From Afipia felis ATCC 53690 (lineage in GTDB: Bacteria > Pseudomonadota > Alphaproteobacteria > Rhizobiales > Xanthobacteraceae), in NCBI RefSeq assembly GCF_000314735.2, contig NZ_KB375270.1, positions 3,602,001-3,666,000 of the forward strand: a DNA stretch of 64,000 nucleotides. The letters run 5' to 3'. A program made the translations under genes and the position numbers. Below, in pieces: positions 15,362 to 33,683 of this stretch (position 1 is its first letter; each line of letters begins with the position of its first letter). Under the pieces are notes generated by a model. The model did no database searches. It was not told the DNA's origin and worked only from the letters and a program-made list of their open reading frames with translations.

Positions 15362-16366
15362 ATGAAAAAGCTACTAGCGTATATCTTTGCCTTGATCGCC
15401 ACAGTCACCTCATTTCTTCCAAGTAGTCCTGCTCGAGCGGAAGTAAGTGAAGTGCGGCTCGCACAACAATTCGGAATCAACTATCTGCCGCTTACCATCA
15501 TGCGGACCGAAAATCTGATCGAGAAACACGCAGCCGCGTTGGGTCTGGGTAAGATTAAGGTCACGTGGCTGAAGTTCGGTGGAAGCAACTCCATCAACGA
15601 TGCCCTTCTCTCCGGCCAGCTCGATTTCGGCTCTGGCGGCGTTGCTCCGCTTTTGACGGTCTGGGACAAGACAAAAGGCATTTTCGATGTGCGCGGCGTC
15701 GCCGCACTTGGCTCAATGCCGTTCTACCTGAACTCTAGTAATCCCAACGTCAAAACCCTCGCTGACTTCACCAGTAAAGACAAGATCGCGTTGCCGGCGG
15801 TCGAAGTTTCGATTCAGGCGGTTGTTCTTCAAATGGCTGCCGCAAAGGCATTCGGCATGGCGAACTACAAAAAGCTCGATCGGCTCACTGTGGGGATGAA
15901 GCATCCTGATGCCATGGCGGCGCTGCTCTCCGGCACTGAAGTCACCGCGCACTTTGCTAATTCACCGTTTCAGTAACAGGAGCTGCAGAATCCGGCGGTT
16001 CATCGTGTCCTGAGTTCGTACGAAGTGCTCGGCGAACCCACGACTCTGAATTCCGTCTATACGACCAAAAAATTTCACGACAACAATCCCAAGACCTATC
16101 AGGCGGTCCTCAATGCGCTGAAAGAAGCCATGCAATTTATAAATGACGACAAGGCGCGCGCAGCCAAAATCTACGTCGAAAGTGAGAAAAGCAAACTGTC
16201 GGCAGAATTCGTTCAGAAGATTTTGGAAGATCCGGATTTTATCGTCACGAGCGAGCCGAAGGGGATCATGAAGTACGCGGAATTCATGCATGCCGCGAAG
16301 AAAATGAAGAACCTGCCAAAGAGTGCGAAGGATATCTACTTTCCCGAACTCTATCAGGGCAAGTGA
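15362..16366 (+). pseudogene. ABC substrate-binding protein (NMT1/TauA type) broken by a nonsense codon
   Basis: The signal peptide and first 204 codons are normal (MKKLLAYIFALIATVTSF...). TAA at 15974-15976 then interrupts the frame after NSPFQ. The same frame continues without further damage to a stop at 16366, giving about 334 codons in all. The paralogue at 26088 has SPYQEAELKHPGVHRVF where this reads SPFQ-stop-QELQNPAVHRVL, so a single G-to-T change of a GAA codon explains the break. The mutation looks recent, or it could be a base-calling error. If real, the intact paralogue probably serves the importer. Confidence 0.75.
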
Positions 16367-16440: not shown

Positions 16441-17208
16441 ATGACGACAGCGCCACTATTGGAAGTCAAGGGCGTCACGTTGCAGTACAAGACGCCGAGT
16501 TACCTTATCACTGCGACCTACCGGGTCGATTTCAGCGTTTTTCAGGGCGATCGTTTCATTTTGCTGGGGCCTTCGGGCTGCGGCAAGTCGACGTTGCTGA
16601 AGGCCGTCGGCGGCTACATGACGCCGACTGAAGGTGAGATGAAGCTCAAGAGCAATGTGATCCGTCATCCCGGCCCTGACCGAATGATGGTGTTTCAGGA
16701 GTTCGATCAGCTGCTGCCCTGGAAGAGCGTCAAGGAAAACGTGATGTTTCCCTTGCAGTGCACCAACAAGCTCGGCGTCCGCGAGGCCGAAGAAAAGGCC
16801 ATGCACTATATCCGCAAGGTCAACCTGGAGAAGTTCGCGGAGAGCTACCCGCATATGCTCTCGGGCGGCATGAAGCAGCGCGTGGCAATCGCACGCGGCA
16901 TGGCGATGGAGCCGGATATTCTCCTGATGGACGAGCCGTTCGCCGCACTCGACGCGCTGACGCGCCGCAAGATGCAGGACGAGCTGATGATGTTGTGGGA
17001 CGAAACTCGTTTCACCGTTCTGTTTGTCACACACTCCATTCCCGAGGCGATCAAGATCGGCAACCGCATCCTGCTGCTGTCGCCGCATCCGGGGCAGGTG
17101 AAAGCCGAATTGAACGGCGGCGTGCAAGGCGAGGAAGCCGCCGAACTCGAAAAACGAATTCAGGCCATGCTGTTTGCCGACACCATCGAGGAGGCCGAAA
17201 ATGTCTGA
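16441..17208 (+). CDS. ABC transporter ATPase, taurine/nitrate type
   Basis: A 255-residue ATPase of the SsuB/TauB/NrtD class. Walker A is GPSGCGKST, the signature is LSGGMKQRVAIARG, and Walker B is ILLMDEPFAALD. The start has GGGAGGAGGG upstream. It overlaps the permease gene by 8 nt. With the permease and an NMT1-type binding protein it forms an importer for an unidentified small anion or ring compound used by the surrounding catabolic genes. Confidence 0.9.
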   Translation: MTTAPLLEVKGVTLQYKTPSYLITATYRVDFSVFQGDRFILLGPSGCGKSTLLKAVGGYMTPTEGEMKLKSNVIRHPGPDRMMVFQEFDQLLPWKSVKENVMFPLQCTNKLGVREAEEKAMHYIRKVNLEKFAESYPHMLSGGMKQRVAIARGMAMEPDILLMDEPFAALDALTRRKMQDELMMLWDETRFTVLFVTHSIPEAIKIGNRILLLSPHPGQVKAELNGGVQGEEAAELEKRIQAMLFADTIEEAENV

Positions 17209-18097
17209 TGCATCGCTCGCCATGAAGGCCTTCACAACCCCGGTCCGCCCGGAGTTCGTGTGCGACGCAAGAACCACCGATCGGGCGCCCGAAGTGCTGG
17301 AAAAGCCTCTTTCGCTGGCCGTTCGACTCTACAATCAAACTTGGCTGCGCAAGGTCATCATCCTCGTCATTCTCGCTCTCGTTTGGGAAGCCTATGGCCG
17401 TTATCTGAACAACAGCCTGCTGTTCCCGACCTTCGGCGAAACGATGAGCGCGTTTTTCACCAATATCGGGAACGGCGTTCTGCCGTCACGTGCGTGGGCT
17501 TCCATTGAAGTGCTGTTGATGGGGTACGCGGTCGGTGTGGTGCTGGCGGCGCTGCTGACGGCATTGGCGATCACGACGCGGATCGGCACCGACTTCCTCG
17601 AGACACTGACCTCGATGTTCAACCCGCTGCCGGCGATCGCGCTGCTGCCGCTGGCGTTGATCTGGTTCGGGCTCGGCAACGGCTCGCTGGTGTTTGTGCT
17701 GGTGCACTCGGTGACCTGGGCCATCGCGCTGAACACGCACTCCGGCTTTTTGTCGGTCAGCCGCACGCTGAAGATGGTCGGGCGCAATTACGGGCTCGGC
17801 GGCTTCCGCTACATCGGCAAGATCCTGATCCCTGCAGCGTTTCCAAGTATTCTCACCGGTCTCAAGATCGGCTGGGCGTTCGCCTGGCGTACGCTGATCG
17901 CGGCCGAACTGGTGTTCGGCGTCTCGTCGGGCTCGGGCGGTCTCGGGTGGTTCATCTTTGAGAACAAGAACAGTCTCGACATCCCGACGGTGTTCGCCGG
18001 TCTGTTGACCGTCATCATCATCGGTCTTGTGGTCGAGAACATCCTCTTTCGTGCCATCGAGGCCAACACGGTCGACCGCTGGGGTATGCAATCTTAG
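17201..18097 (+). CDS. ABC transporter permease, taurine/nitrate type
   Basis: A 298-residue permease with six predicted helices after an N-terminal cytoplasmic stretch of about 55 residues. The coupling loop RYIGKILIPAAFPSILTGLK and the segment FNPLPAIALLPLALIWFGLG are typical of SsuC/TauC. ATG 17201 lies inside the end of the ATPase gene, indicating translational coupling. The next 230 nt hold only the promoter and operator of the P450 operon. Confidence 0.9.
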   Translation: MSDASLAMKAFTTPVRPEFVCDARTTDRAPEVLEKPLSLAVRLYNQTWLRKVIILVILALVWEAYGRYLNNSLLFPTFGETMSAFFTNIGNGVLPSRAWASIEVLLMGYAVGVVLAALLTALAITTRIGTDFLETLTSMFNPLPAIALLPLALIWFGLGNGSLVFVLVHSVTWAIALNTHSGFLSVSRTLKMVGRNYGLGGFRYIGKILIPAAFPSILTGLKIGWAFAWRTLIAAELVFGVSSGSGGLGWFIFENKNSLDIPTVFAGLLTVIIIGLVVENILFRAIEANTVDRWGMQS

Positions 18098-22378: not shown

Positions 22379-23914
22379 ATGCTAAAAGTACAGCTCGGCG
22401 AAATGCTCAGCAAACATAACCAAGTTTCGACGGCGCTATTGTATGAGGACCGGACGTATTCCTACGGAGAACTGGAAGCTCTTTCGAACCGTTTCGCGCA
22501 CATGCTCCTCTCCTTGGGAGTGAAGGCTGGAGAGAGCGTTTCCTATTTGCTGGGGAACGATCCGCTCTTGGTGGCGGGCTATATCGCCGGGTTCAAGACA
22601 GGCATCGTCACCAATCCTCTCCACGACCGGCTCACAGCGGATGAAATCGCCTATATCGTCAATCACGCCGGCAGCAAGATCGTGGTGGTCGGCGAATCAT
22701 ACGCGGCGACCTTAGCGGAAGCGCTGAAGACCCTCATCGATGTTCGTGTGGTCTGCTTCGGCAATCCGGGCCCCTTGCAGGGCGCGACCGTTCCCGATAT
22801 CGATTCGTTTTCGTCTGCGGCGCTGAGTCCGAGCATGAAGCCGGATGATGTTGCGTTGCTTCTCTATACATCCGGTACGACGGGGCGGCCGAAAGGCGTG
22901 ATGTTGACGCACGGCAATGTCGCGGAAGGCATCACGGCGGTTGCGGGCGGATTCGATCTCAAGCCATCCGATCGAACGCTGTGCATCATGTCGCTCTCGC
23001 ACACCAATGCGCTGATGTTCAGCACGCTGCCTTACCTGCTGTCCGGCGCATCGGTGGCGTTGTGCAAGCGGTTCAGTGCCTCGAATCTATGGGCGCTCTG
23101 CGAGCGTTACGACGTCAACAGTATGAGTGCCTCGCCCACCATTCTGAGCATTCTGCTGGAAGATGAGACGGGAAAGGCCGGCTATCCGAAGCTCGAGTTC
23201 GTCAAGGTGGCGTCCGCGCCGACCTCGGTCGATCTGTCGAACCGTTTCCATGCTCGTTTTGGACAGAACCTGCTGCTCGAGACATACGGCCTCACCGAAA
23301 CTACATCCATCAATGTCATGAACCCGCTCCGTGGTCCGCGTAAGCCGGGTTCGATCGGAAAGCCGCTTGCGCCGAACGAAATTCGCATCGTCGATGGCGA
23401 TGGCAGGGAACTGCCGGTGGGCGCGGTCGGTGAAATCGAAATTCGTGGTCCGACTGTGATGAAGGGCTATTACAAGGACCCCGATGCGACCGCTGCGACC
23501 ATACGGAACGGTTGGGTGCGTTCCGGCGATCTGGCGCGGTTCGATGATGAGGGTTACATTTTCATCGTTGGTCGAAAGAAGGAAACGATCATTCGCGGTG
23601 GTGAAAACATCTCGCCGCTCGAGGTCGAGCAGATCATCGCGCGCCATCCGGCGGTACGGGAAGCGGCTGCGGTCGGAATTCCTGATCGCATCTACGGCGA
23701 GGTTGTCGCGGCCTGTGTCGTCAAGCGCGAAGATGTGACGGAAAACGAACTGATCCAGCACTGCGCCGAATATCTTGCGTCGTTCAAGGTGCCGGCTCGC
23801 ATTGCTTTCGTCGATGAGCTGCCGCGCAATCCGATCGGGAAGTTCGTTCGCCGGGCTTTGCTGCCGTATTTCGAAGGTGAGAGTACGTCGGTTGCCAGCA
23901 AGAGGAATGCATGA
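22379..23914 (+). CDS. AMP-dependent acyl-CoA synthetase/ligase
   Basis: A 511-residue ANL-superfamily adenylating enzyme that activates a carboxylic acid as acyl-AMP and then usually acyl-CoA. The phosphate loop is LLYTSGTTGRPKGVMLTH, the hinge region is VGRKKETIIRGGENISP, and the catalytic lysine is in NPIGKFVRRALL near the C-terminus. It overlaps the LarA-like gene by 4 nt. It probably activates the acid made or interconverted by neighbouring enzymes; the substrate is unknown. Confidence 0.9.
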   Translation: MLKVQLGEMLSKHNQVSTALLYEDRTYSYGELEALSNRFAHMLLSLGVKAGESVSYLLGNDPLLVAGYIAGFKTGIVTNPLHDRLTADEIAYIVNHAGSKIVVVGESYAATLAEALKTLIDVRVVCFGNPGPLQGATVPDIDSFSSAALSPSMKPDDVALLLYTSGTTGRPKGVMLTHGNVAEGITAVAGGFDLKPSDRTLCIMSLSHTNALMFSTLPYLLSGASVALCKRFSASNLWALCERYDVNSMSASPTILSILLEDETGKAGYPKLEFVKVASAPTSVDLSNRFHARFGQNLLLETYGLTETTSINVMNPLRGPRKPGSIGKPLAPNEIRIVDGDGRELPVGAVGEIEIRGPTVMKGYYKDPDATAATIRNGWVRSGDLARFDDEGYIFIVGRKKETIIRGGENISPLEVEQIIARHPAVREAAAVGIPDRIYGEVVAACVVKREDVTENELIQHCAEYLASFKVPARIAFVDELPRNPIGKFVRRALLPYFEGESTSVASKRNA

Positions 23915-25326
23915 GCACGAAAAAAGTAGCCGTCGATTTCGGCGACAAGAAACTCGATATCGACGTTCCGGATCATGCCTCGGTCGTCGAGTTCGAGGAT
24001 CCGCCCTTCCTGCAGGACCCTGCCGCTTCGGTGCGCGAAACGCTGGCGAAGCCCTATGGCTCCCCTCCATTGGCCGAACTGGTCAAGCCCGGCATGCGGG
24101 TTGCGATTGGCTTTGACGACATCACCCGGCCGAACACGCCGCCGCGGACCATCCTGCCGATCATCGTCGAGGAGTTGCTCGCCAAAGGCGTGAAGCAGCG
24201 AGATATTCTTTTCGTCAACGCGTGCAGCAATCATCGCAAGAATACGCGTGCGGAACTTGCCAACCATCTCGGGCCGGAGATTTTTGGAACGTTCTGGGGG
24301 ACAGGGCAAATTCTCAACCACGACTGCACCGATCAGGAGCAGTTGCAGTATTTCGGCATTACCGACGGCGGCCGTTATGTCGAAATGAACAAGCATTTCG
24401 TCAATGCGGACCTGATGATCTATCAGGGCAACGTCGCCGCCGGTGCGTGGCGCAGCTACACCGGCACGGGCGTCGCGATCGGCCTCGCATCGACGCGCAG
24501 CATCGCCTCTCACCACAGCTTCCACGGCATCCCCGAGCCTGCGGTGAAGGTCAATGCCGAAAAAAAGGCCGCAGCTTCACCGCGTAAACGTATTCCAAGC
24601 GTGAAGGAGGAGATGACCGACTTCCTCGACAATGCGCTTGGACGGAAGGTTTTCTACATCAACTCCTTCAATGGCAGTGGCGGGCGCATGGCCGGTGTGT
24701 TTGCCGGTTACGCGGATGGCGTGAAGCCGCCGGCGTGGGAGCTTGCGGAAAAATATGTGCGCCGCCCGACGCCGGAAGCGGACGTTTTGATCGTAGGCCT
24801 TCCCGCGAGCTATTCTTACGGCAGTTCCAACAACACGTTGATCGCAACCGTTGGTGCGACGGTGCCGCCGCGCTACTGCCCCGAAGCACCCGTCCTGCGG
24901 GAAGGTGGTGTTGTCATTGCCTGCTCGCCGGCAAATGGCCATATCGATGCCGATCGCTTTCCATCCTATCAGCCGGCCATCGATCTTTATGCGCGCTATT
25001 TTAGCTCGCGTGACATGGTTGACCATGAAGATGAATTCGATCATCGCCCCGACTTCCGGCACAAATACACGCACGGCTACGGTTATCCGCCGCTGCACGC
25101 GTTCTGGCTGTTCTATGAAAACGAGTACCTTCTGAAGCGAGCGGGTGCTGTCATCATGGCGGGTACGCCAAATCCGGGCGCGTTTCGTGCGCTCGGTCTT
25201 ACCCCGGCGCGGAATTTCGACGAAGCGTGGCAGATCGCAAAGAAGTATGTCGGCGCCAATCCCCGCACCGTGGTTGCGCCGACCTTCTGGAGCAAGCCCC
25301 GCATCAAGTTCGACGTGCCGCGATGA
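23911..25326 (+). CDS. Divergent LarA-family (DUF2088) nickel-pincer enzyme candidate
   Basis: A 471-residue protein of the lactate racemase family. Retained features by eye alignment are FDDITRP (D70, R73), H108 in CSNHRKN, and H201/H202 in ASHHSF where LarA has its nickel-ligating H200. Where LarA has the catalytic H174 and the cofactor-bearing K184, this protein reads NVAAGAW and YTGTGVAIG, without His or Lys. The Tyr/Gln/Lys substrate-site group near residue 295 also seems replaced (NNTLIATVGAT). It is followed directly by larB and lies with larC and larE, so use of the nickel-pincer nucleotide is likely, perhaps without covalent attachment. The reaction may be a racemisation, epimerisation or other hydride transfer on a hydroxy acid. 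Confidence 0.8.
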   Translation: MSTKKVAVDFGDKKLDIDVPDHASVVEFEDPPFLQDPAASVRETLAKPYGSPPLAELVKPGMRVAIGFDDITRPNTPPRTILPIIVEELLAKGVKQRDILFVNACSNHRKNTRAELANHLGPEIFGTFWGTGQILNHDCTDQEQLQYFGITDGGRYVEMNKHFVNADLMIYQGNVAAGAWRSYTGTGVAIGLASTRSIASHHSFHGIPEPAVKVNAEKKAAASPRKRIPSVKEEMTDFLDNALGRKVFYINSFNGSGGRMAGVFAGYADGVKPPAWELAEKYVRRPTPEADVLIVGLPASYSYGSSNNTLIATVGATVPPRYCPEAPVLREGGVVIACSPANGHIDADRFPSYQPAIDLYARYFSSRDMVDHEDEFDHRPDFRHKYTHGYGYPPLHAFWLFYENEYLLKRAGAVIMAGTPNPGAFRALGLTPARNFDEAWQIAKKYVGANPRTVVAPTFWSKPRIKFDVPR

Positions 25327-25346
25327 TCCGCTAACGGAGAGGTCCC

Positions 25347-26060
25347 ATGCTGTCGGATCAGGTCAAACTGGATTTTCAGCGACGCGAGCGGATCGGATTC
25401 GACGAGGCAGTGCTCTGCGAATGGAAAAGCGTGGAGCAGATTGCCTATATTCTGCAAACAGCTCGCGACGCGGAACGTCCGCTTCTTTTGACGCGCCTCG
25501 CAGATGATAAGCTCGCCGCTTTGCCGGAGGCGCTGCGGAAAAACGTCGACTACGATCCGGTTTCTCGCACCGGTTTCTTTGCCTCCGAAATCTTCGTTCC
25601 ATCTCATGCCGATGTGAGCGTGGTGAGTGCCGGGAGTTCGGACATTCCGGTCGCGCATGAGGCGATCCGCACATTGCAATATTTCGGCATCGGGGCCTCT
25701 GAAATCTCGGACGTCGGCGTGGCGGGTCTCTGGCGGCTGATGGAGCGGATCGATGGGATCCGTGCAAGCAAAGTCGTCATTGTCGCAGCCGGGATGGACG
25801 GCGCGTTGCCGAGTGTAGTCGGCGGGCTAGTGCCGGGTGTCGTGATCGCGGTGCCAACCTCGGTTGGTTACGGCGCGTCCGACGGTGGTCGTACCGCGAT
25901 GAGCGCCTGTCTGGCGAGCTGTGCCGCAGGCCTCGCCGTCGTCAATATCGATAACGGCTTCGGAGCTGCCTGTGTTGCGTTGCGTGTGCTGCGCGACACC
26001 AAAGCTCCGCAATATCGAATGCTGCTCGAAGCAGCTCAGGGAGTGAACTTGTCAAAATAA
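25347..26060 (+). CDS. larB: Nickel-pincer cofactor biosynthesis protein LarB
   Basis: A 237-residue protein with the AIR-carboxylase-like (PurE) domain in the C-terminal half: VVSAGSSDIPVAHEAI, then ILxxAAGMDGALPSVVGGL-type sequence and PTSVGYGAS. LarB carboxylates and hydrolyses nicotinic acid adenine dinucleotide as the first step in making the nickel-pincer nucleotide. GGAGAGG precedes ATG 25347. It sits 20 nt after the LarA-like gene. Confidence 0.92.
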   Translation: MLSDQVKLDFQRRERIGFDEAVLCEWKSVEQIAYILQTARDAERPLLLTRLADDKLAALPEALRKNVDYDPVSRTGFFASEIFVPSHADVSVVSAGSSDIPVAHEAIRTLQYFGIGASEISDVGVAGLWRLMERIDGIRASKVVIVAAGMDGALPSVVGGLVPGVVIAVPTSVGYGASDGGRTAMSACLASCAAGLAVVNIDNGFGAACVALRVLRDTKAPQYRMLLEAAQGVNLSK

Positions 26061-26087
26061 TCAAAGCGACAAATGGGAGGAGGGGCC

Positions 26088-27107
26088 ATGTTTCGAGGAA
26101 AGGTTGTTACCGGGTTGAGTGGGTTCATATTCGCGGGCGCGTTCTTGCTGGGAGCTGTTACGACGCCAGCGGTGGCGGAAGTCAGCGAAGTCAAGATCGC
26201 CATGCAATATGGTCTTGGACATCTGCCGGTCATGGTGATGCGCGACAAAAAACTCGTCGAGAAGCATCTCAAGGAAGAAGGTCTCGGCAACACCACCACT
26301 AAATATTTCCAGCTTGCCGGTTCGGCCGCGATGAACGACGCGCTGCTGTCAGGGAGCGTCGATTTCACGAGTGGCGGCCTGACCGGCATTGCCACATTGT
26401 GGGGAGCTTCCAAGGGGCGTGTGAAGGCGCTGTCTGCCGTCAACGCTTTCCCGATGTACCTCAACACGATCAATCCGAAGATCAAGTCGCTGAAGGATTT
26501 TACGCCGGCCGACAAGATCGCCCTGCCGGCCGTTCGTGTTTCGCCGCAGGCAATCGTGCTCGGCATGGCGGCCCAGAAGGAGTTGGGGGACGCCACCAAG
26601 CTCGATTCGCTGACCGTGACGATGAACCATCCCGACGCGATGGCCGCGCTGCTGTCGAAATCCGGCGCGGTGAACAGCCATCTCGGCTTCTCGCCGTATC
26701 AGGAAGCTGAGTTGAAGCATCCCGGCGTGCACCGGGTTTTCAGTTCGTATGACGTCATGGGCGGTCCGGCGACCATCGTCGTGATCGGCACGCGCCAGGA
26801 TTTTTACGATCAGAATCCAAAAACTGTGAAAGCCGTGCTCGCGGCGCTCAACGATGCGCTTGCCTTCATTAATAAAGACAAGGAAGGGGCGGCGAAGTTC
26901 TACATCGAGAACAGTGGCGACAAGAGTTCGACCTATGATGAGGTGTTGGGCCTTTTGAAGAACCCGGAAATCATCTTCTCCAACGTGCCGTCGGGGACCA
27001 TGAAGTTCGTGTCTTTCATGTACGAACGTGGCATCGTCAAGCAGAAGCCGGAATCGTGGAAGGATCTTTATTTCCCGACGGCCTATAACATCAAGGGTGC
27101 AAACTGA
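26088..27107 (+). CDS. ABC substrate-binding protein, NMT1/TauA type
   Basis: A 339-residue periplasmic protein with a signal peptide cleaved after VAEV/AVA (about residue 28). It is closely similar to the broken gene at 15362 (shared EVSEVxxAxQxGxxxLPxxxMR and MNHPDAMAALLS). ATG 26088 is chosen because GGAGGAGGGG lies just before it, inside the longer frame. It is placed between larB and larC and is followed without gap by larC, which ties import of the substrate to the Lar genes. It presumably works with the ATPase and permease at 16.4-18.1 kb. Confidence 0.9.
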   Translation: MFRGKVVTGLSGFIFAGAFLLGAVTTPAVAEVSEVKIAMQYGLGHLPVMVMRDKKLVEKHLKEEGLGNTTTKYFQLAGSAAMNDALLSGSVDFTSGGLTGIATLWGASKGRVKALSAVNAFPMYLNTINPKIKSLKDFTPADKIALPAVRVSPQAIVLGMAAQKELGDATKLDSLTVTMNHPDAMAALLSKSGAVNSHLGFSPYQEAELKHPGVHRVFSSYDVMGGPATIVVIGTRQDFYDQNPKTVKAVLAALNDALAFINKDKEGAAKFYIENSGDKSSTYDEVLGLLKNPEIIFSNVPSGTMKFVSFMYERGIVKQKPESWKDLYFPTAYNIKGAN

Positions 27108-28442
27108 GTGTCTGAAAGGCTCCATATTCACCTCGATGTCGTCGGCGGTATCGCCGGCGACATCTTCGTTGCAGGAATGGTCGATGCTTTCCCGAAGCTG
27201 AAGGACGCCGTACTCAGGAATACGTCGGCCGTTCTGCCAACGCATTGCGGAACACCTGCTTTTGCTGAGGGGAAGAGCGGCGCGATCAGGGCGCTACGAT
27301 TTGCGCTCGCTTCATCCGATGCAAAGCCCGCTCATTCTCACGGCCATACCCACCACCACCACCACCATCACGACCATGCGCATGGTCACGAGCATAAGCA
27401 TGCTCACCATCACGCCTCCGCTCATCAGGCCGAGACGCTGCATCGCCATGACGCTGCGACGGACCATCATCATGAGCACGATCATGGCGCAGGCTCCTAT
27501 CGTGAAATTGTTGGTCTGATCGAAGCGGCCGATCTCGCTCCGAACGTTCGGACCCATGCTCTGGGAGTCTTGCGTCTTCTCGCCGAAGCCGAAGCCCATA
27601 TCCACCAGGTCGATATCGACCATGTGCATTTCCATGAAATCGCCGGCTGGGATTCGATCATGGATGTCGTCGCGGCAGGAACGATCATCGCCGCCCTCGA
27701 TGGTGCGCGCTGGTCGGTTTCGAGCCTTCCTCTGGGAGGCGGCCTGATCCAGACTCAACACGGGCTACTCCCGGTACCGGCGCCTGCGACGGCAACGCTG
27801 CTCAAGGATTTTCAGTGGCGCAACGACGGCGTTTCCGGCGAACGTATTACACCCACGGGCGCAGCCATTCTGAAGCATCTGATCGGCAGGTCGACGAGCC
27901 AGTTGCCGGAAGGGCGCTTGATGTCGACCGGGACCGGGGCAGGCACACGCGAATTCGAGCAACTGCCGAACATCTTGCGCGTTCTTGTCTTTGAAACGGG
28001 CGCCCAGGCAGAGAGCATGGTGGTCGCGACGATCAACTTCGATGTCGACGACATGACGGGAGAGGAAATTCAGGTTGCGGCTGACCGGATTCGTCAAGCC
28101 GACGGGGTGATTGACGTCACCACGGGGCAGCGAACCGGGAAAAAGGGGCGCGTGGCGACCTCATTCCGCGTCTTGGCTCGGCCTGACAGGCTGGACGAGA
28201 TCAATCCGCTGATCTTCACTGAAACTTCGACGATCGGTCTGCGTTGGCATCTCGAGCAGCGCGCGTGCCTGTTTCGCAAGCCCGATACCGTCGCGCACGA
28301 GAACGGGGTCTTGCGTGTCAAGGAGGTCAGCCGCCCTGACGGGTCGTTTAGTCGCAAGATAGAGAGCGACGATGTGGCGTTTCAACCCGGGCTTGAAAGG
28401 CGCCGGGCGCTCAAGGCCAAAGCGGAGCGGAACGAGACATGA
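27108..28442 (+). CDS. larC: Nickel insertion protein LarC with histidine-rich segment
   Basis: A 444-residue single-chain LarC, which inserts nickel into the pincer nucleotide at the cost of CTP. It starts MSERLHIHLDVVGGIAGDIF (GTG, directly after the preceding TGA). A long His/Asp-rich tract lies at about residues 75-125, with repeated HHHHHHHDHAHGHEH-type sequence, likely to store or deliver nickel. The core motifs VDIDHVHFHEIAGWDSIMD and ETNIDDMTGE-like NFDVDDMTGEEI follow. In Lactiplantibacillus larC needs a programmed frameshift; here it is one open frame. Confidence 0.92.
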   Translation: MSERLHIHLDVVGGIAGDIFVAGMVDAFPKLKDAVLRNTSAVLPTHCGTPAFAEGKSGAIRALRFALASSDAKPAHSHGHTHHHHHHHDHAHGHEHKHAHHHASAHQAETLHRHDAATDHHHEHDHGAGSYREIVGLIEAADLAPNVRTHALGVLRLLAEAEAHIHQVDIDHVHFHEIAGWDSIMDVVAAGTIIAALDGARWSVSSLPLGGGLIQTQHGLLPVPAPATATLLKDFQWRNDGVSGERITPTGAAILKHLIGRSTSQLPEGRLMSTGTGAGTREFEQLPNILRVLVFETGAQAESMVVATINFDVDDMTGEEIQVAADRIRQADGVIDVTTGQRTGKKGRVATSFRVLARPDRLDEINPLIFTETSTIGLRWHLEQRACLFRKPDTVAHENGVLRVKEVSRPDGSFSRKIESDDVAFQPGLERRRALKAKAERNET

Positions 28443-29230
28443 AAACTTTCTCGAGCGAAGAAGCCGCCTTGGTATCCGTGCTGGATGGTTATGATGACAT
28501 CGCGATTGCGGTCAGCGGTGGCGTCGACAGCATGGTGCTGGCTTACATCGCTCATCGCTTTTCGCGCACTACGGCGACGATGTTGCATGCGATTTCACCC
28601 GCCGTGCCGCAGGCCGCGACCGCGCGTGTCAGGCGTTACGCCGAGAGTGAAGGGTGGCGGATCACTTGGCTCGATGCTGGTGAATTCGAGGATCCGAACT
28701 ATCGCGCCAACCCCGTCAACCGTTGCTATTATTGCAAGTCCAATCTCTATGACCGGATTCGCGATGCGACGTCTTCGCAGATCGCATCGGGGACGAACAT
28801 GGACGATCTCGGCGATTTCCGTCCGGGTTTGAAGGCTGCGTCAGAGCGCGCGGTGGTTCACCCTTATGTCGAAGCGGGTCTTGGCAAAAGGAACATCTAT
28901 CGGTTGGCAGAACTTCATGGACTGACCGATCTTGCCGAGCTTCCGGCGCAGCCATGCCTTGCCAGTCGCGTCGAGACCGGAATTGCGATTGATCCGAAAG
29001 ATCTTGCTTTCATCGAATTGATGGAAGGCAGGGCCGCTTCGCTCGCACCCGTATCCGCGGATATCCGCTGCCGTACGACTGCCGCAGGCATCATCATTGA
29101 AGTCGGCGCGGCGTTTCCGCAATCCCAGCGCGGGGTGCTGGCAGATGATGCCGCCAGATTGTGCGCGGCTCACGGGCGCGCTTTTGCCGGAGTACGGGAC
29201 TATCGTCGTGGGTCCGCCTTTCTTCGCTGA
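28439..29230 (+). CDS. larE: Sulfur transferase LarE
   Basis: A 263-residue PP-loop ATPase. SGGVDS is at residues 26-31, followed by NRCYYCKSNLYD (95-104) and AQPCLASR with C173. C173 aligns with the cysteine that LarE of the sacrificial type donates to the pincer precursor, losing its own sulfur. It overlaps larC by 4 nt and ends the operon; about 260 nt without a recognised gene or FNR box separate it from napE. Confidence 0.92.
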   Translation: MKTFSSEEAALVSVLDGYDDIAIAVSGGVDSMVLAYIAHRFSRTTATMLHAISPAVPQAATARVRRYAESEGWRITWLDAGEFEDPNYRANPVNRCYYCKSNLYDRIRDATSSQIASGTNMDDLGDFRPGLKAASERAVVHPYVEAGLGKRNIYRLAELHGLTDLAELPAQPCLASRVETGIAIDPKDLAFIELMEGRAASLAPVSADIRCRTTAAGIIIEVGAAFPQSQRGVLADDAARLCAAHGRAFAGVRDYRRGSAFLR

Positions 29231-29706: not shown

Positions 29707-30018
29707 ATGAAAGAGTCAGGGCTTTCGAGGCGAACGTTTCTTTCCGGGCAGCTTCAGCCACCGACCATCCATATTTCGAGCGCCGTTGTTTCGGTCCTGC
29801 CGCGCTACCTGGACGATGTGGCACGGCAATTGTCCGCGCTGCCTGAAGTCGAAATCCACCATCGCAGCACATCGAAGCTCGTCATCGTCCTGGAAGGGCC
29901 GGACAGCGGCATGCTTGGCGCGCGGCTCGCCGAGATTTCCGGATGGACCGGCGTGCTGTCCGCCAACATGGTCTACGAGCAATTCGACGAAGTTGCTGGG
30001 CATGGAGAGGAACGATGA
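29707..30018 (+). CDS. napD: NapA maturation chaperone NapD
   Basis: A 103-residue protein with [17 protein letters not shown], the NapD fold that binds the Tat signal of NapA during cofactor loading. The N-terminus is extended by about 20 residues and carries SRRTFLSG, which itself looks like a twin-arginine motif but has no hydrophobic core after it. It overlaps napA by 4 nt. Confidence 0.88.
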
Positions 30019-32510
30019 GTCTTTCGCGACGCGACATGCTCAAGGCCCAAGCGGCCGCGATTGCGGCAACCGCTGCCAATATTGCTTTGCCCGCTGCCGC
30101 GCAGCCGGTGGCGCAAGGCATCGGTTCGCTTGAGATTAAATGGTCGAAGGCGCCATGCCGTTTCTGCGGCACTGGATGTGGTGTCATGGTCGGCGTGAAG
30201 GGCGGCAAAGTCGTCGCGACCCATGGCGATACGCTGGCGGAGGTGAATCGCGGTCTCAATTGCATCAAGGGCTATTTCCTGTCGAAGATCATGTATGGCG
30301 GCGACCGCCTGACCACGCCGCTGATGCGCAAGAAAAACGGTGTCTATGACAAGAACGGCGACTTCACGCCGGTAAGCTGGGATGAAGCATTCGGCGTGAT
30401 GGCCGATCGTCTCAAGGCCGTTCTCAAGGCGAAGGGTCCAACCGCAGTCGGCATGTTCGGCTCGGGCCAGTGGACGGTTTGGGAAGGATACGCAGCGACA
30501 AAATTGATGCGCGCCGGCTTTCGCTCCAACAACCTCGATCCCAATGCGCGCCACTGCATGGCGTCAGCTGCCTACGCTTTCACACGCACCTTCGGTTCGG
30601 ATGAACCGATGGGCTGTTACGACGATTTCGAAGCCGCGGATGCGTTCGTGCTGTGGGGCTCGAACATGGCGGAGATGCATCCGATTCTGTGGACGCGTCT
30701 GACCGACCGCCGGCTCAGCCATCCGCATGTCAAGGTCGCAGTGCTCTCGACCTTCACGCACCGCAGTTCTGATCTCGCGGATATCCCGATCGTATTCAAG
30801 CCGGGCACCGATCTTGCGATCCTCAACTACATCGCCAATCACATCATCACCACCGGCCGGGTGAATAAGGACTTCGTCAAGGATCACACGACCTTCGTGA
30901 AAGGCGTGGCCGATATCGGGTATGGCCTACGCTCGGACAATCCGCTTGAGATAAATGCCAAGGGAGCAGGTAATCCGGCGGCCATGGAGCCGATCGACTT
31001 CGATGCCTATGCGAAGTTCGTCAAGGATTACACGGTCGAAAAAGTCTCGGAGCTGACTGGCGTCGAGCGCGGCTTCCTTCAGGAGCTTGCCGAGCTTTAT
31101 GCTGATCCCTCGCGCAAGGTGATGTCGCTCTGGACCATGGGCTGCAATCAGCATGTGCGTGGTGTCTGGGCCAATCAACTCATCTACAACATCCATTTGC
31201 TGACGGGAAAAATCTCTGAGCCTGGCAACTCGCCGTTCTCGCTGACAGGACAGCCCTCGGCTTGTGGCACTGCGCGCGAGGTCGGCACCTTCGCGCATCG
31301 GCTGCCGGCGGATATGACCGTGGTCAATCCCGAGCACCGCAAGCACGCCGAGGAAATCTGGCGTGTACCGCAAGGGCTTATTCCCGCAAAGCCCGGTTAT
31401 CATGCGGTCGAACAGGACCGCATGCTGCGCGACGGCAAGCTCAATTTCTACTGGATACAGGTCAACAACAACCTGCAGGCCGCCCCGAACAATACGCGCG
31501 AAACCTATCCGGGCTATCGCAACCCCGACAATTTCATCGTGGTGTCGGATGCCTATCCCACCGTCACCGCGCTGGCGGCGGACGTCATCCTGCCAGCCGC
31601 GATGTGGGTGGAGAAAGAGGGCGCCTACGGCAACGCGGAGCGGCGGACGCATTTCTGGCGCCAGCTCGTGAAGGCGCCGGGGGAGGCGCGCTCCGACCTG
31701 TGGCAGCTTATGGAGTTTTCCAAGCGCTTCACCACCGACGAAGTTTGGCCGGCGGAGATTTTGCAGACCAATCCGAATTATCGCGGAAAGACGTTGTTCG
31801 AGGTTCTTTACAAGAATGGCAATGTCGATCGCTTTGCAGCCAGCGAGATTCCAGCCGAGTACGAGAATCAGGAATCAAAGGCGTTCGGCTTCTATGTCCA
31901 GAAAGGTCTGTTCGAGGAATATGCCACTTTCGGGCGCGGCCATGGCCACGATTTGGGGCCGTTCGATCTCTATCACGAGGTACGCGGCTTACGCTGGCCA
32001 GTGGTCGACAAGAAGGAAACGCGCTGGCGCTATCGCGAAGGTCTCGACCCATATGTGAAGCCTGGGAAAGGCATCGAGTTTTACGGTCAGCCGGACGGGC
32101 GCGCGAAGATCATCGCGGTGCCTTACGAGCCGCCGGCCGAGTCGCCGGATAAAGAGTACGATATCTGGCTAGTGACCGGGCGTGTGCTGGAGCATTGGCA
32201 CTCGGGGTCGATGACCATGCGGGTGCCCGAGCTTTACAAGGCGTTTCCCGGCGCGGTCTGCTTCATGCATGCTGAGGATGCCCGGGAGCGCGGCATCAAC
32301 CAGGGCGCTGAAATCAAGCTCGCTTCGCGAAGGGGCGAGATCAGAACGCGAGTCGACATCCGCGGCCGCAACCGCATGCCGCGCGGCGTTGTTTTCGTGC
32401 CGTGGTTCGACGCCAGCGAGCTTATCAACAAGACCACACTCGACGCGACAGATCCGATTTCCAAACAGACGGATTTCAAAAAATGCGCGGTCAAAATCAG
32501 CCCCGTTTGA
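30015..32510 (+). CDS. napA: Periplasmic nitrate reductase catalytic subunit NapA
   Basis: An 831-residue molybdoenzyme reducing nitrate to nitrite in the periplasm. The Tat signal [20 protein letters not shown] precedes the [4Fe-4S] ligands C48, C51, C55 and C83 ([14 protein letters not shown]). C181 in NARHCMASA is the molybdenum ligand. ATG 30015 is set by the signal peptide and the overlap with napD. Length is normal. The last 28 nt overlap napB. Confidence 0.95.
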
Positions 32511-32980
32511 ACCCGCTGGCGCGTTCGCTGCTCGGGGCGATGCTGGCAGGGTCGGTTGTCCTGTTTACCGGCGCGATCTACGCGCAGAACGCGCCGCAGA
32601 TCGTGCCGCGCGTCACCGGCAATGCCGATCCCATGAGTGAACCGCCGATTCCGCCGATCTCGCGCCCGATCACCGACGACAAACGGGTAATGCGTAACTA
32701 TCCCGAGCAGCCGCCGGTGATTCCGCATTCCATTGACAACTATCAGCTCACATTGAAAGCCAATCGCTGCCTCGATTGTCACCGCCGCCAGTACACGGAA
32801 GGGTCCGGTGCACCGATGATCAGCGTCACGCACTTCATGGATCGCGATGGCCAGGTTCTCGCCGACGTTACGCCGCGGCGTTACTTCTGTACGGCCTGTC
32901 ATGTTCAGCAGACCGATGCCAAGCCGCTGGTGCCAAGTACATTCGAGGATATGGTTCTGATCCACGATCCCAAGCAATGA
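32483..32980 (+). CDS. napB: Diheme cytochrome c NapB
   Basis: A 165-residue exported protein with signal helix [19 protein letters not shown] and two heme c motifs, CLDCH and CTACH. It passes electrons from NapC to NapA. The start at ATG 32483 lies inside napA; an upstream frame is spurious. Confidence 0.92.
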
Positions 32981-32987
32981 GCGCGAC

Positions 32988-33683
32988 ATGGCGAAACTGA
33001 AAGCCCTGCTGCTGTGGTTCTGGCGAATCGTCAGCCGGCCGAGCATGTATTTCAGCCTCGGTTTTCTGACCCTGGGCGGTTTCTTTTGTGGCGTGATGTT
33101 CTGGGGTGCATTCAATACGGCGCTCGAATTGACCAACACGGAGAAATTCTGTGTGTCGTGCCATGAGATGCATGACAACGTTTATCAGGAGCTGCAGCAC
33201 ACCGTTCATTTCTCCAATCGCTCGGGAGTTCGCGCCACCTGTCCGGACTGCCATGTGCCGCACAACTGGACCGACAAGATCGCGCGCAAGATGCAGGCCT
33301 CGAAGGAAGTCTGGGGCAAGATTTTCGGCACCATCTCAACCCGCAAGAAGTTTCTCGATATGCGTCTTGAGCTTGCCAAGCACGAATGGGAACGGCTCAA
33401 GGCTAACGATTCCCTGGAATGCCGAAACTGCCATTCCTCGATTGCAATGGATTTTGCAAAACAGACGCCGCGCGCGGCCGAAATCCACACCCGCTATCTG
33501 GTCTCGGGTGAGCGAACCTGTATTGACTGCCATAAGGGCATCGCGCATGAGCTCCCGGACATGACCGGAATAGAGCCCGGCTGGAGCGCTCCGCCCGAAC
33601 TGCGGGATCGGCACAGCTTCAGAGAGCAGCGGCAATCGCTGCAGGATTTTATTACTTTGGCAAACGTATCCGGTGGCGATTGA
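32988..33683 (+). CDS. napC: Membrane-anchored tetraheme cytochrome c NapC
   Basis: A 231-residue quinol dehydrogenase with one N-terminal membrane anchor (about residues 22-45) and four CxxCH motifs: CVSCH, CPDCH, CRNCH and CIDCH. It oxidises quinol and feeds NapB. It is the last gene of napEDABC and converges on the oxidase subunit gene; the 92-nt gap shows no clear terminator. Confidence 0.94.

Follow-up and report, generated by a model that had tools for sequence, protein, structure and literature searches.

A LarA-family protein lacking the cofactor-binding lysine is encoded together with nickel-pincer nucleotide synthesis genes in Afipia felis and belongs to a distinct clade

Covalent attachment to a lysine residue is commonly counted among the means by which LarA enzymes hold the nickel-pincer nucleotide (NPN) cofactor, and homologue groups without NPN-binding residues have so far been set aside as probable non-users. 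Here we describe a LarA-family protein that lacks this lysine and is encoded beside larB, larC and larE, the genes of NPN synthesis, in the alphaproteobacterium Afipia felis ATCC 53690 (genome of 4.2 Mb, 99.98% complete). The DNA analysed, hereafter the window, is a stretch of 64,000 nucleotides (contig NZ_KB375270.1, positions 3,602,001 to 3,666,000).

LarA groups without the catalytic His174 have already been published (PMC7583248, PMC12611868). Groups 14 and 15 lack this residue, and group 17, a subfamily with a single catalytic histidine, carries Asn (Gatreddi 2025; PMC12611868). Two group-17 proteins with solved structures, LarASp and LarABw (9Q2U, 9Q3K, 9Q3J), are the best full-length solved relatives of the window protein (9Q2U, E 1.8e-51; 9Q3J, E 4.9e-51) and, like it, have no His174, but group 17 keeps Lys195, to which NPN is covalently bonded in LarASp (PMC12611868). 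A precedent for non-covalent NPN is LarA of T. thermosaccharolyticum, which loses NPN during purification (PMC11796402). In groups 12, 13 and 16, to which the proteins described below are likened by description only, catalytic and NPN-binding residues are likewise not conserved (Desguin 2020; PMC7583248). Within the open-licence PMC literature, no report was found of a LarA homologue that lacks Lys184 and yet is encoded with larBCE.

The locus consists of six genes in the same orientation, listed here with the codons discussed below (AMP, adenosine monophosphate; CoA, coenzyme A; ORF, open reading frame).

22379..23914, + strand: acyl-CoA ligase, AMP-dependent (PF00501, 292 bits); 4-bp overlap between its stop and the start of larA
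23911..25326, + strand: LarA-family protein without Lys184 and His174, 471 aa (PF09861, Lar_N; nearest PDB entries 9Q2U/9Q3J)
24442..24516, + strand: codons 178-202 of the LarA-like protein, GAWRSYTGTGVAIGLASTRSIASHH; Gly178 at the His174 column, Lys184 region two residues shorter, Ni-ligand His202 kept
24604..24606, + strand: Lys232 codon, the sole lysine invariant in 200/200 clade members
25096..25098, + strand: His396 codon (corresponding to His401 of LarASp), invariant in 200/200
25347..26060, + strand: LarB (NF033503, 257.8 bits against a cut-off of 175; PDB 7MJ0, E 1.7e-47)
26073..27107, + strand: periplasmic solute-binding protein, NMT1/SsuA-like (PF13379, 36.4 bits against 24.7)
27108..28442, + strand: LarC, nickel insertase, a single ORF with a His-rich stretch (PF01969, 304 bits; PDB 12BI, E 1.3e-35)
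28439..29230, + strand: LarE, PP-loop sulfur transferase with a CxxC-C pattern (TIGR00268, 232.2 bits against 150; PDB LarE, E 7.8e-14)

The initial annotation had proposed a complete set of larB, larC and larE beside a LarA homologue, and this description holds: the ORFs are as given, all lie on the + strand, and the NCBIfam cut-offs are passed, by LarC in its two halves (TIGR00299, 181.2 against 90 bits; NF052512, 102.5 against 50 bits). The CxxC-C pattern is associated with the [4Fe-4S] type of LarE (PMC9283937). The stop of the CoA ligase gene and the start of larA overlap as ATGA (23911-23914), larC and larE also overlap by 4 bp, and the remaining intergenic gaps are 0 to 20 bp, so the arrangement CoA ligase-larA-larB-solute-binding protein-larC-larE fits a single transcript. 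Promoter-like matches in the region (5; shuffle mean, 3.3) and terminator-like matches (8; mean, 8.7) were near the shuffle level. The closest named match for the locus is in Afipia sp. 1NLS2, of which the LarA-like protein is 97% identical to that of the window.

The LarA-like protein gave a Lar_N score of 148.2 bits against the gathering cut-off of 23.3; the genome has no second match to Lar_N. With residues numbered as in LarA of L. plantarum (LarALp; 5HUQ), the alignment by two aligners supported both sets of residue assignments made from the sequence by eye. The DxTR motif (D72, T74, R75), H108 and the Ni ligand H200 are all present; in the numbering of the window protein, Asp72, Arg75 and His200 correspond to Asp70, Arg73 and His202, respectively. 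H174, K184 and the substrate group Y294, Q295 and K298 are absent: the H174 column is occupied by G178, K184 is missing next to a two-residue deletion, and Y294/Q295/K298 align with L310/I311/V314. The protein stays below the NF033504 equivalog for nickel-dependent lactate racemase (118.4 bits against 460), and its best NCBIfam match, NF052592 (LarAH14/15/16), reaches 184.7 bits, far under the cut-off of 740. Both equivalogs were also failed by seven further members of the clade described next. The homologue L039, which bears the lysine, scores 313 with NF052592 and is thus also under the cut-off, and none of 398 Pseudomonadota genomes scanned with this profile gave a match over it.

The residue pattern was followed in a MAFFT alignment of 222 sequences: 200 lysine-less proteins and, as references, 11 members of group 17, ten canonical LarA (LarALp among them) and L039. 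The lysine-less set comprises the window protein, six proteins from related loci and, out of 198 listed homologues, the 193 that reach 440 aa (the other five, being shorter, were removed), with redundancy retained. The list itself joins two overlapping sets picked by similarity to clade members, the best 120 of 193 proteins and the best 120 of 162. Lys184 was found in none of the 200, and the two preceding columns are deleted in all of them, whereas the lysine is kept by group 17 (11/11), canonical LarA (10/10) and L039. An alignment artefact was rejected as the cause because two independent methods agree: with a profile built from the lysine-bearing references alone and a second aligner, 200 of 200 were again without lysine at position 184. 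Some lysine occurs within columns 165-200 in 72 of the 200, at column 177 (59) and column 194 (36), neither of which is conserved. The remaining cofactor residues are retained, Asp72 in 191, Arg75 in 199, His108 in 198 (two have Gln) and the Ni ligand His200 in all 200. The His174 column is variable (Gln 68, Ser 49, Thr 37, Ala 16, Gly 12, His 5, Asn 5, others rarer), in contrast to the invariant Asn185 of group 17, and the columns of Tyr294, Gln295 and Lys298, residues that group 17 lacks as well, are mostly aliphatic. Five members have His at the 174 column despite the absent lysine (L038 from genome G070, P0075, P0120, P0260 and P0285), and two others, P0315 and P0318, have Gln for His108 and no His at the 174 column, so that both canonical histidines are lost.

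A tree had been suggested as a check on the initial annotation. A quick tree was built from 63 sequences, comprising 46 of the 200 lysine-less proteins, six of group 17, ten canonical LarA and L039. In it, the lysine-less proteins formed one group (Shimodaira-Hasegawa-like approximate likelihood ratio test [SH-aLRT], 98), separate from group 17 (100) and canonical LarA (98). The group-17 branch lies in the same half of this tree and does not include the clade; the placement of L039, which sits on a long branch, is unsure. Members were found in alpha-, beta- and gammaproteobacteria, Rokubacteria and Chloroflexota, to which the database names add Clostridia and Deltaproteobacteria, and identity within the clade goes down to about 40%. 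The alignment and the tree indicate that the loss of Lys184 marks a distinct LarA clade.

Eleven alpha- and betaproteobacterial loci (the window, L005-L013 and L048) show larA linked directly to larB, larC and larE. Named strains that carry the operon include Paralcaligenes ureilyticus DSM 24591 and Variovorax sp. WS11. In the eight lar-linked loci outside the genus the gene order is larA-larC-larE-larB, while the placing of the solute-binding protein gene between larB and larC is common to the three loci of the genus (window, L005 and L048). The CoA ligase gene, which had been pointed out as a neighbour, proved to be a regular one: it immediately precedes larA in all of these loci but L009 (10 of 11, the window included), and the CoA ligase-larA-lar linkage thus occurs in both classes.

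Co-occurrence at the level of genomes was nearly complete. Among the 18 searchable genomes that carry a lysine-less protein, several of which are metagenome bins of unstated completeness, LarB and LarE were over the cut-off in 18 and LarC in 17; the sole carrier without LarC is G075, of which the LarE gene is cut by a contig end. LarC was detected in 11/11 carriers from Pseudomonadota versus 51/397 other genomes in the sample of this phylum (Fisher p 4e-10, kinship ignored), and comparison of all 18 carriers, seven of which are from other phyla, with the same sample gave p 1e-13, kinship again ignored. Among 61 near relatives, LarB was over the cut-off in 3/3 carriers versus 1/58 others (p 1e-4). 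Moreover, the lysine-less protein was the only Lar_N protein found in all ten lar-linked genomes that were searchable (that of L008 excluded), and also in a Dehalococcoidia bin (G073), in which larB, larC and larE are on another contig.

The ratio of nonsynonymous to synonymous substitution rates (dN/dS) of larA was 0.015-0.023 among the three copies of the genus, with 0.015 for the window copy against each of the other two. The other operon genes gave 0.04-0.15 (two larB pairs left out), and larA was the lowest of the operon; the ratios are rough, since dS approaches or exceeds 1 in several cases. The larA gene is thus under purifying selection. Operon linkage, co-occurrence, the status as sole Lar_N protein and the lowest dN/dS altogether argue for, rather than prove, an active enzyme that binds NPN, and the clade probably represents members of the LarA superfamily that act like an NPN enzyme while failing two of the features by which such enzymes are usually defined.

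On balance we favor the view that the window protein is an NPN-dependent enzyme of this distinct clade, with an untethered cofactor and a role alongside the breakdown of an imported acid through CoA thioesters. NPN would be supplied by LarB, LarE and LarC of the same operon, the role established for their families, and would be bound via Arg73 (to the phosphate), Asp70 and the Ni-ligating His202, without the thioamide to Lys184. Since there is no Lys184 for a thioamide, the cofactor would most likely be the free bis-thiocarboxylate form, held non-covalently. NPN would accept a hydride at its C4 from a hydroxy-acid-like substrate, His108 acting as the base, the partner acid/base would most likely be His396 of the C-terminal domain instead of residue 174, and the isomerised acid would then be activated by the adjacent CoA ligase.

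The absence of His174 had been taken as loss of a catalytic residue. The residue itself is absent, but its function may be supplied by His396. This histidine occurs in all 200 aligned clade members, in 11/11 group-17 proteins and in L039, and aligns with His401 of LarASp, located above NPN beside ligand density of unassigned identity (PMC12611868). A C-terminal acid/base is possible because of this invariance together with the position of the equivalent His401. Two further group-17 residues have counterparts in the clade, Tyr307 as Tyr303 (187/200) and the dimer-forming Arg431 as Arg426 (199/200). Within the favored view, the protein could then be a two-base racemase or epimerase of a hydroxy acid, in which His396 stands in for His174 and the lysine loss is of little consequence; the same His in all these proteins speaks for this version, but no lactate racemization was seen with LarASp, which has it (PMC12611868, where the data are not shown), and other substrate residues differ. 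We hold this version only tentatively. A bolder version, in which the clade would use NPN, its two thiocarboxylates both free, as an untethered and possibly exchangeable coenzyme for a hydride transfer other than the two-base type, feeding a CoA-thioester pathway, appears rather unlikely to us; possible reactions would include one-way epimerization, migration of the hydride to an adjacent carbon, or a net redox reaction from which NPN departs as a hydride carrier.

Several observations weigh against an untethered cofactor or against NPN use by the clade, and are considered here with the two explanations that they would support. The initial annotation had proposed a different mode of cofactor attachment. 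It is correct that the usual Lys184 bond is impossible, and this is so family-wide (0/200), but the proposal has to be softened, as Lys232 could be a substitute anchor, with the thioamide formed from another loop. Lys232 is the only lysine invariant across the clade (200/200) and is located 30 residues beyond the Ni ligand, and its column holds Phe in 11/11 group-17 proteins and no conserved lysine in the 10 canonical ones. In group 17, however, the column just before that of Lys232 holds an invariant lysine (in RHKFD), and yet the holo structure is bonded via Lys195 (PMC12611868); for this reason the Lys232 region probably serves another purpose, and covalent attachment through Lys232 is considered unlikely.

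The second explanation is that NPN is no longer bound by the protein, larBCE serving a non-LarA protein and the larA-like gene being kept for another function. Groups without conserved NPN-binding residues (12, 13 and 16), similar to the clade, were regarded as unlikely NPN users and left out by Desguin 2020 (PMC7583248). In 8 of 19 loci (L014-L021; some short or at contig ends), the DNA searched yielded no lar gene; the carriers G069-G072, G074 and G075 encode other Lar_N proteins in addition; and no Lar_N match was found in G076, because its copy is a C-terminal fragment. Also, larBCE are present without larA in about 15% of genomes (PMC11796402). This is the case inside the genus in G016, the only non-carrier relative with LarB, which has larC-larE-larB (L049, 6205-9091) and in which no LarA was found on the 10 kb contig or by search with the window protein. 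NPN therefore has other clients, and the lar genes of G016 suggest NPN synthesis for a non-LarA client; by eye, they adjoin a glutathione-transferase-like gene. In the Pseudomonadota sample, LarC was detected in 52/398 genomes and a match to the LarAH14/15/16 profile, which may miss LarA types, in 5/398 (E 0.001), suggesting that many NPN makers of this phylum are without a recognisable LarA. On the other side, the Ni-ligand histidine is invariant in a clade of such divergence, and the operon linkage extends over two proteobacterial classes together with near-complete co-occurrence, which makes loss of NPN binding quite improbable. Decay of the larA copy, which the two lost catalytic and binding residues might suggest, is disfavoured by the low dN/dS, the ORF being intact and the same loss occurring in 200 aligned proteins from several phyla, and we give it hardly any weight.

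The pairing with CoA-thioester catabolism in the favored view was further examined from the neighbouring genes; in this respect the clade differs from group 17, which its authors tied to sugar metabolism (PMC12611868). The nearest solved relatives of the CoA ligase are oxalate-CoA ligases (E 8.7e-85), which are too distant for oxalate to be assigned as the substrate. An orthologous two-subunit CoA transferase (69-72% identical between the classes) and an enoyl-CoA hydratase are common to L006, L007, L008 and L010, and a type III CoA transferase is added in L006, L007 and L010. A steroid-like CoA-transferase pathway was considered on account of these genes and dropped: the three CoA-transferase subunits scanned gave no NCBIfam match at E 1e-20, and the nearest B subunit in the A. 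felis genome is 46% identical and located elsewhere. The importer genes vary. The NMT1/SsuA-like binding protein is inside the operon in the three loci of the genus; that of the window is under the TIGR01728 cut-off (77.3 against 163.5 bits) and matched no solved structure at E of 0.1 or below. A TAXI-TRAP importer is present in L008 and L010 (73-75% identical), TctC in L006 and L007, and permease and ATPase genes of the ATP-binding cassette (ABC) type resembling those of the window in L014, L016, L018, L019 and L020. For the proteobacterial members, this gene content fits catabolism of an imported acid via CoA esters.

The cytochrome P450 system and the DJ-1 protein had also been pointed out as neighbours, but a role as partners was not supported by comparison. 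The genes for P450, reductase, GntR and DJ-1 are best left out of the system, because they gave no tblastn match (E 1e-8, more than 45 bits) in 18 related loci, a set that includes short loci and loci truncated at a contig end.

Three further features of the surroundings were recorded. In 5/5 Chloroflexota loci (L016, L017, L018, L020 and L021), a pyridine-nucleotide disulfide oxidoreductase, 85-95% identical to the L016 copy, is encoded just downstream of larA, and is a possible redox partner of the lysine-less LarA. In the window, 15362-15976 and 16025-16366 share a reading frame that is interrupted by a stop, and match successive parts of the operon solute-binding protein (residues 15-210, 50%; residues 228-339, 43%); the gene looks broken and is followed by genes for an ABC ATPase (16441-17208) and a permease (17174-18097). 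Downstream of larE, genes of a periplasmic nitrate reductase (NapD, molybdopterin oxidoreductase, NapB and NapC-like) occupy 29707-33683.

As about 200 relatives share the loss of the lysine, a whole enzyme branch probably holds and uses the nickel-pincer cofactor in a new way. Since the clade is encoded with the NPN synthesis genes, often as the sole LarA-type protein, the need for the lysine tether becomes directly testable in culturable organisms. The clade also opens the question of further NPN chemistry, for which CoA-linked acid catabolism is the place to seek the substrate.

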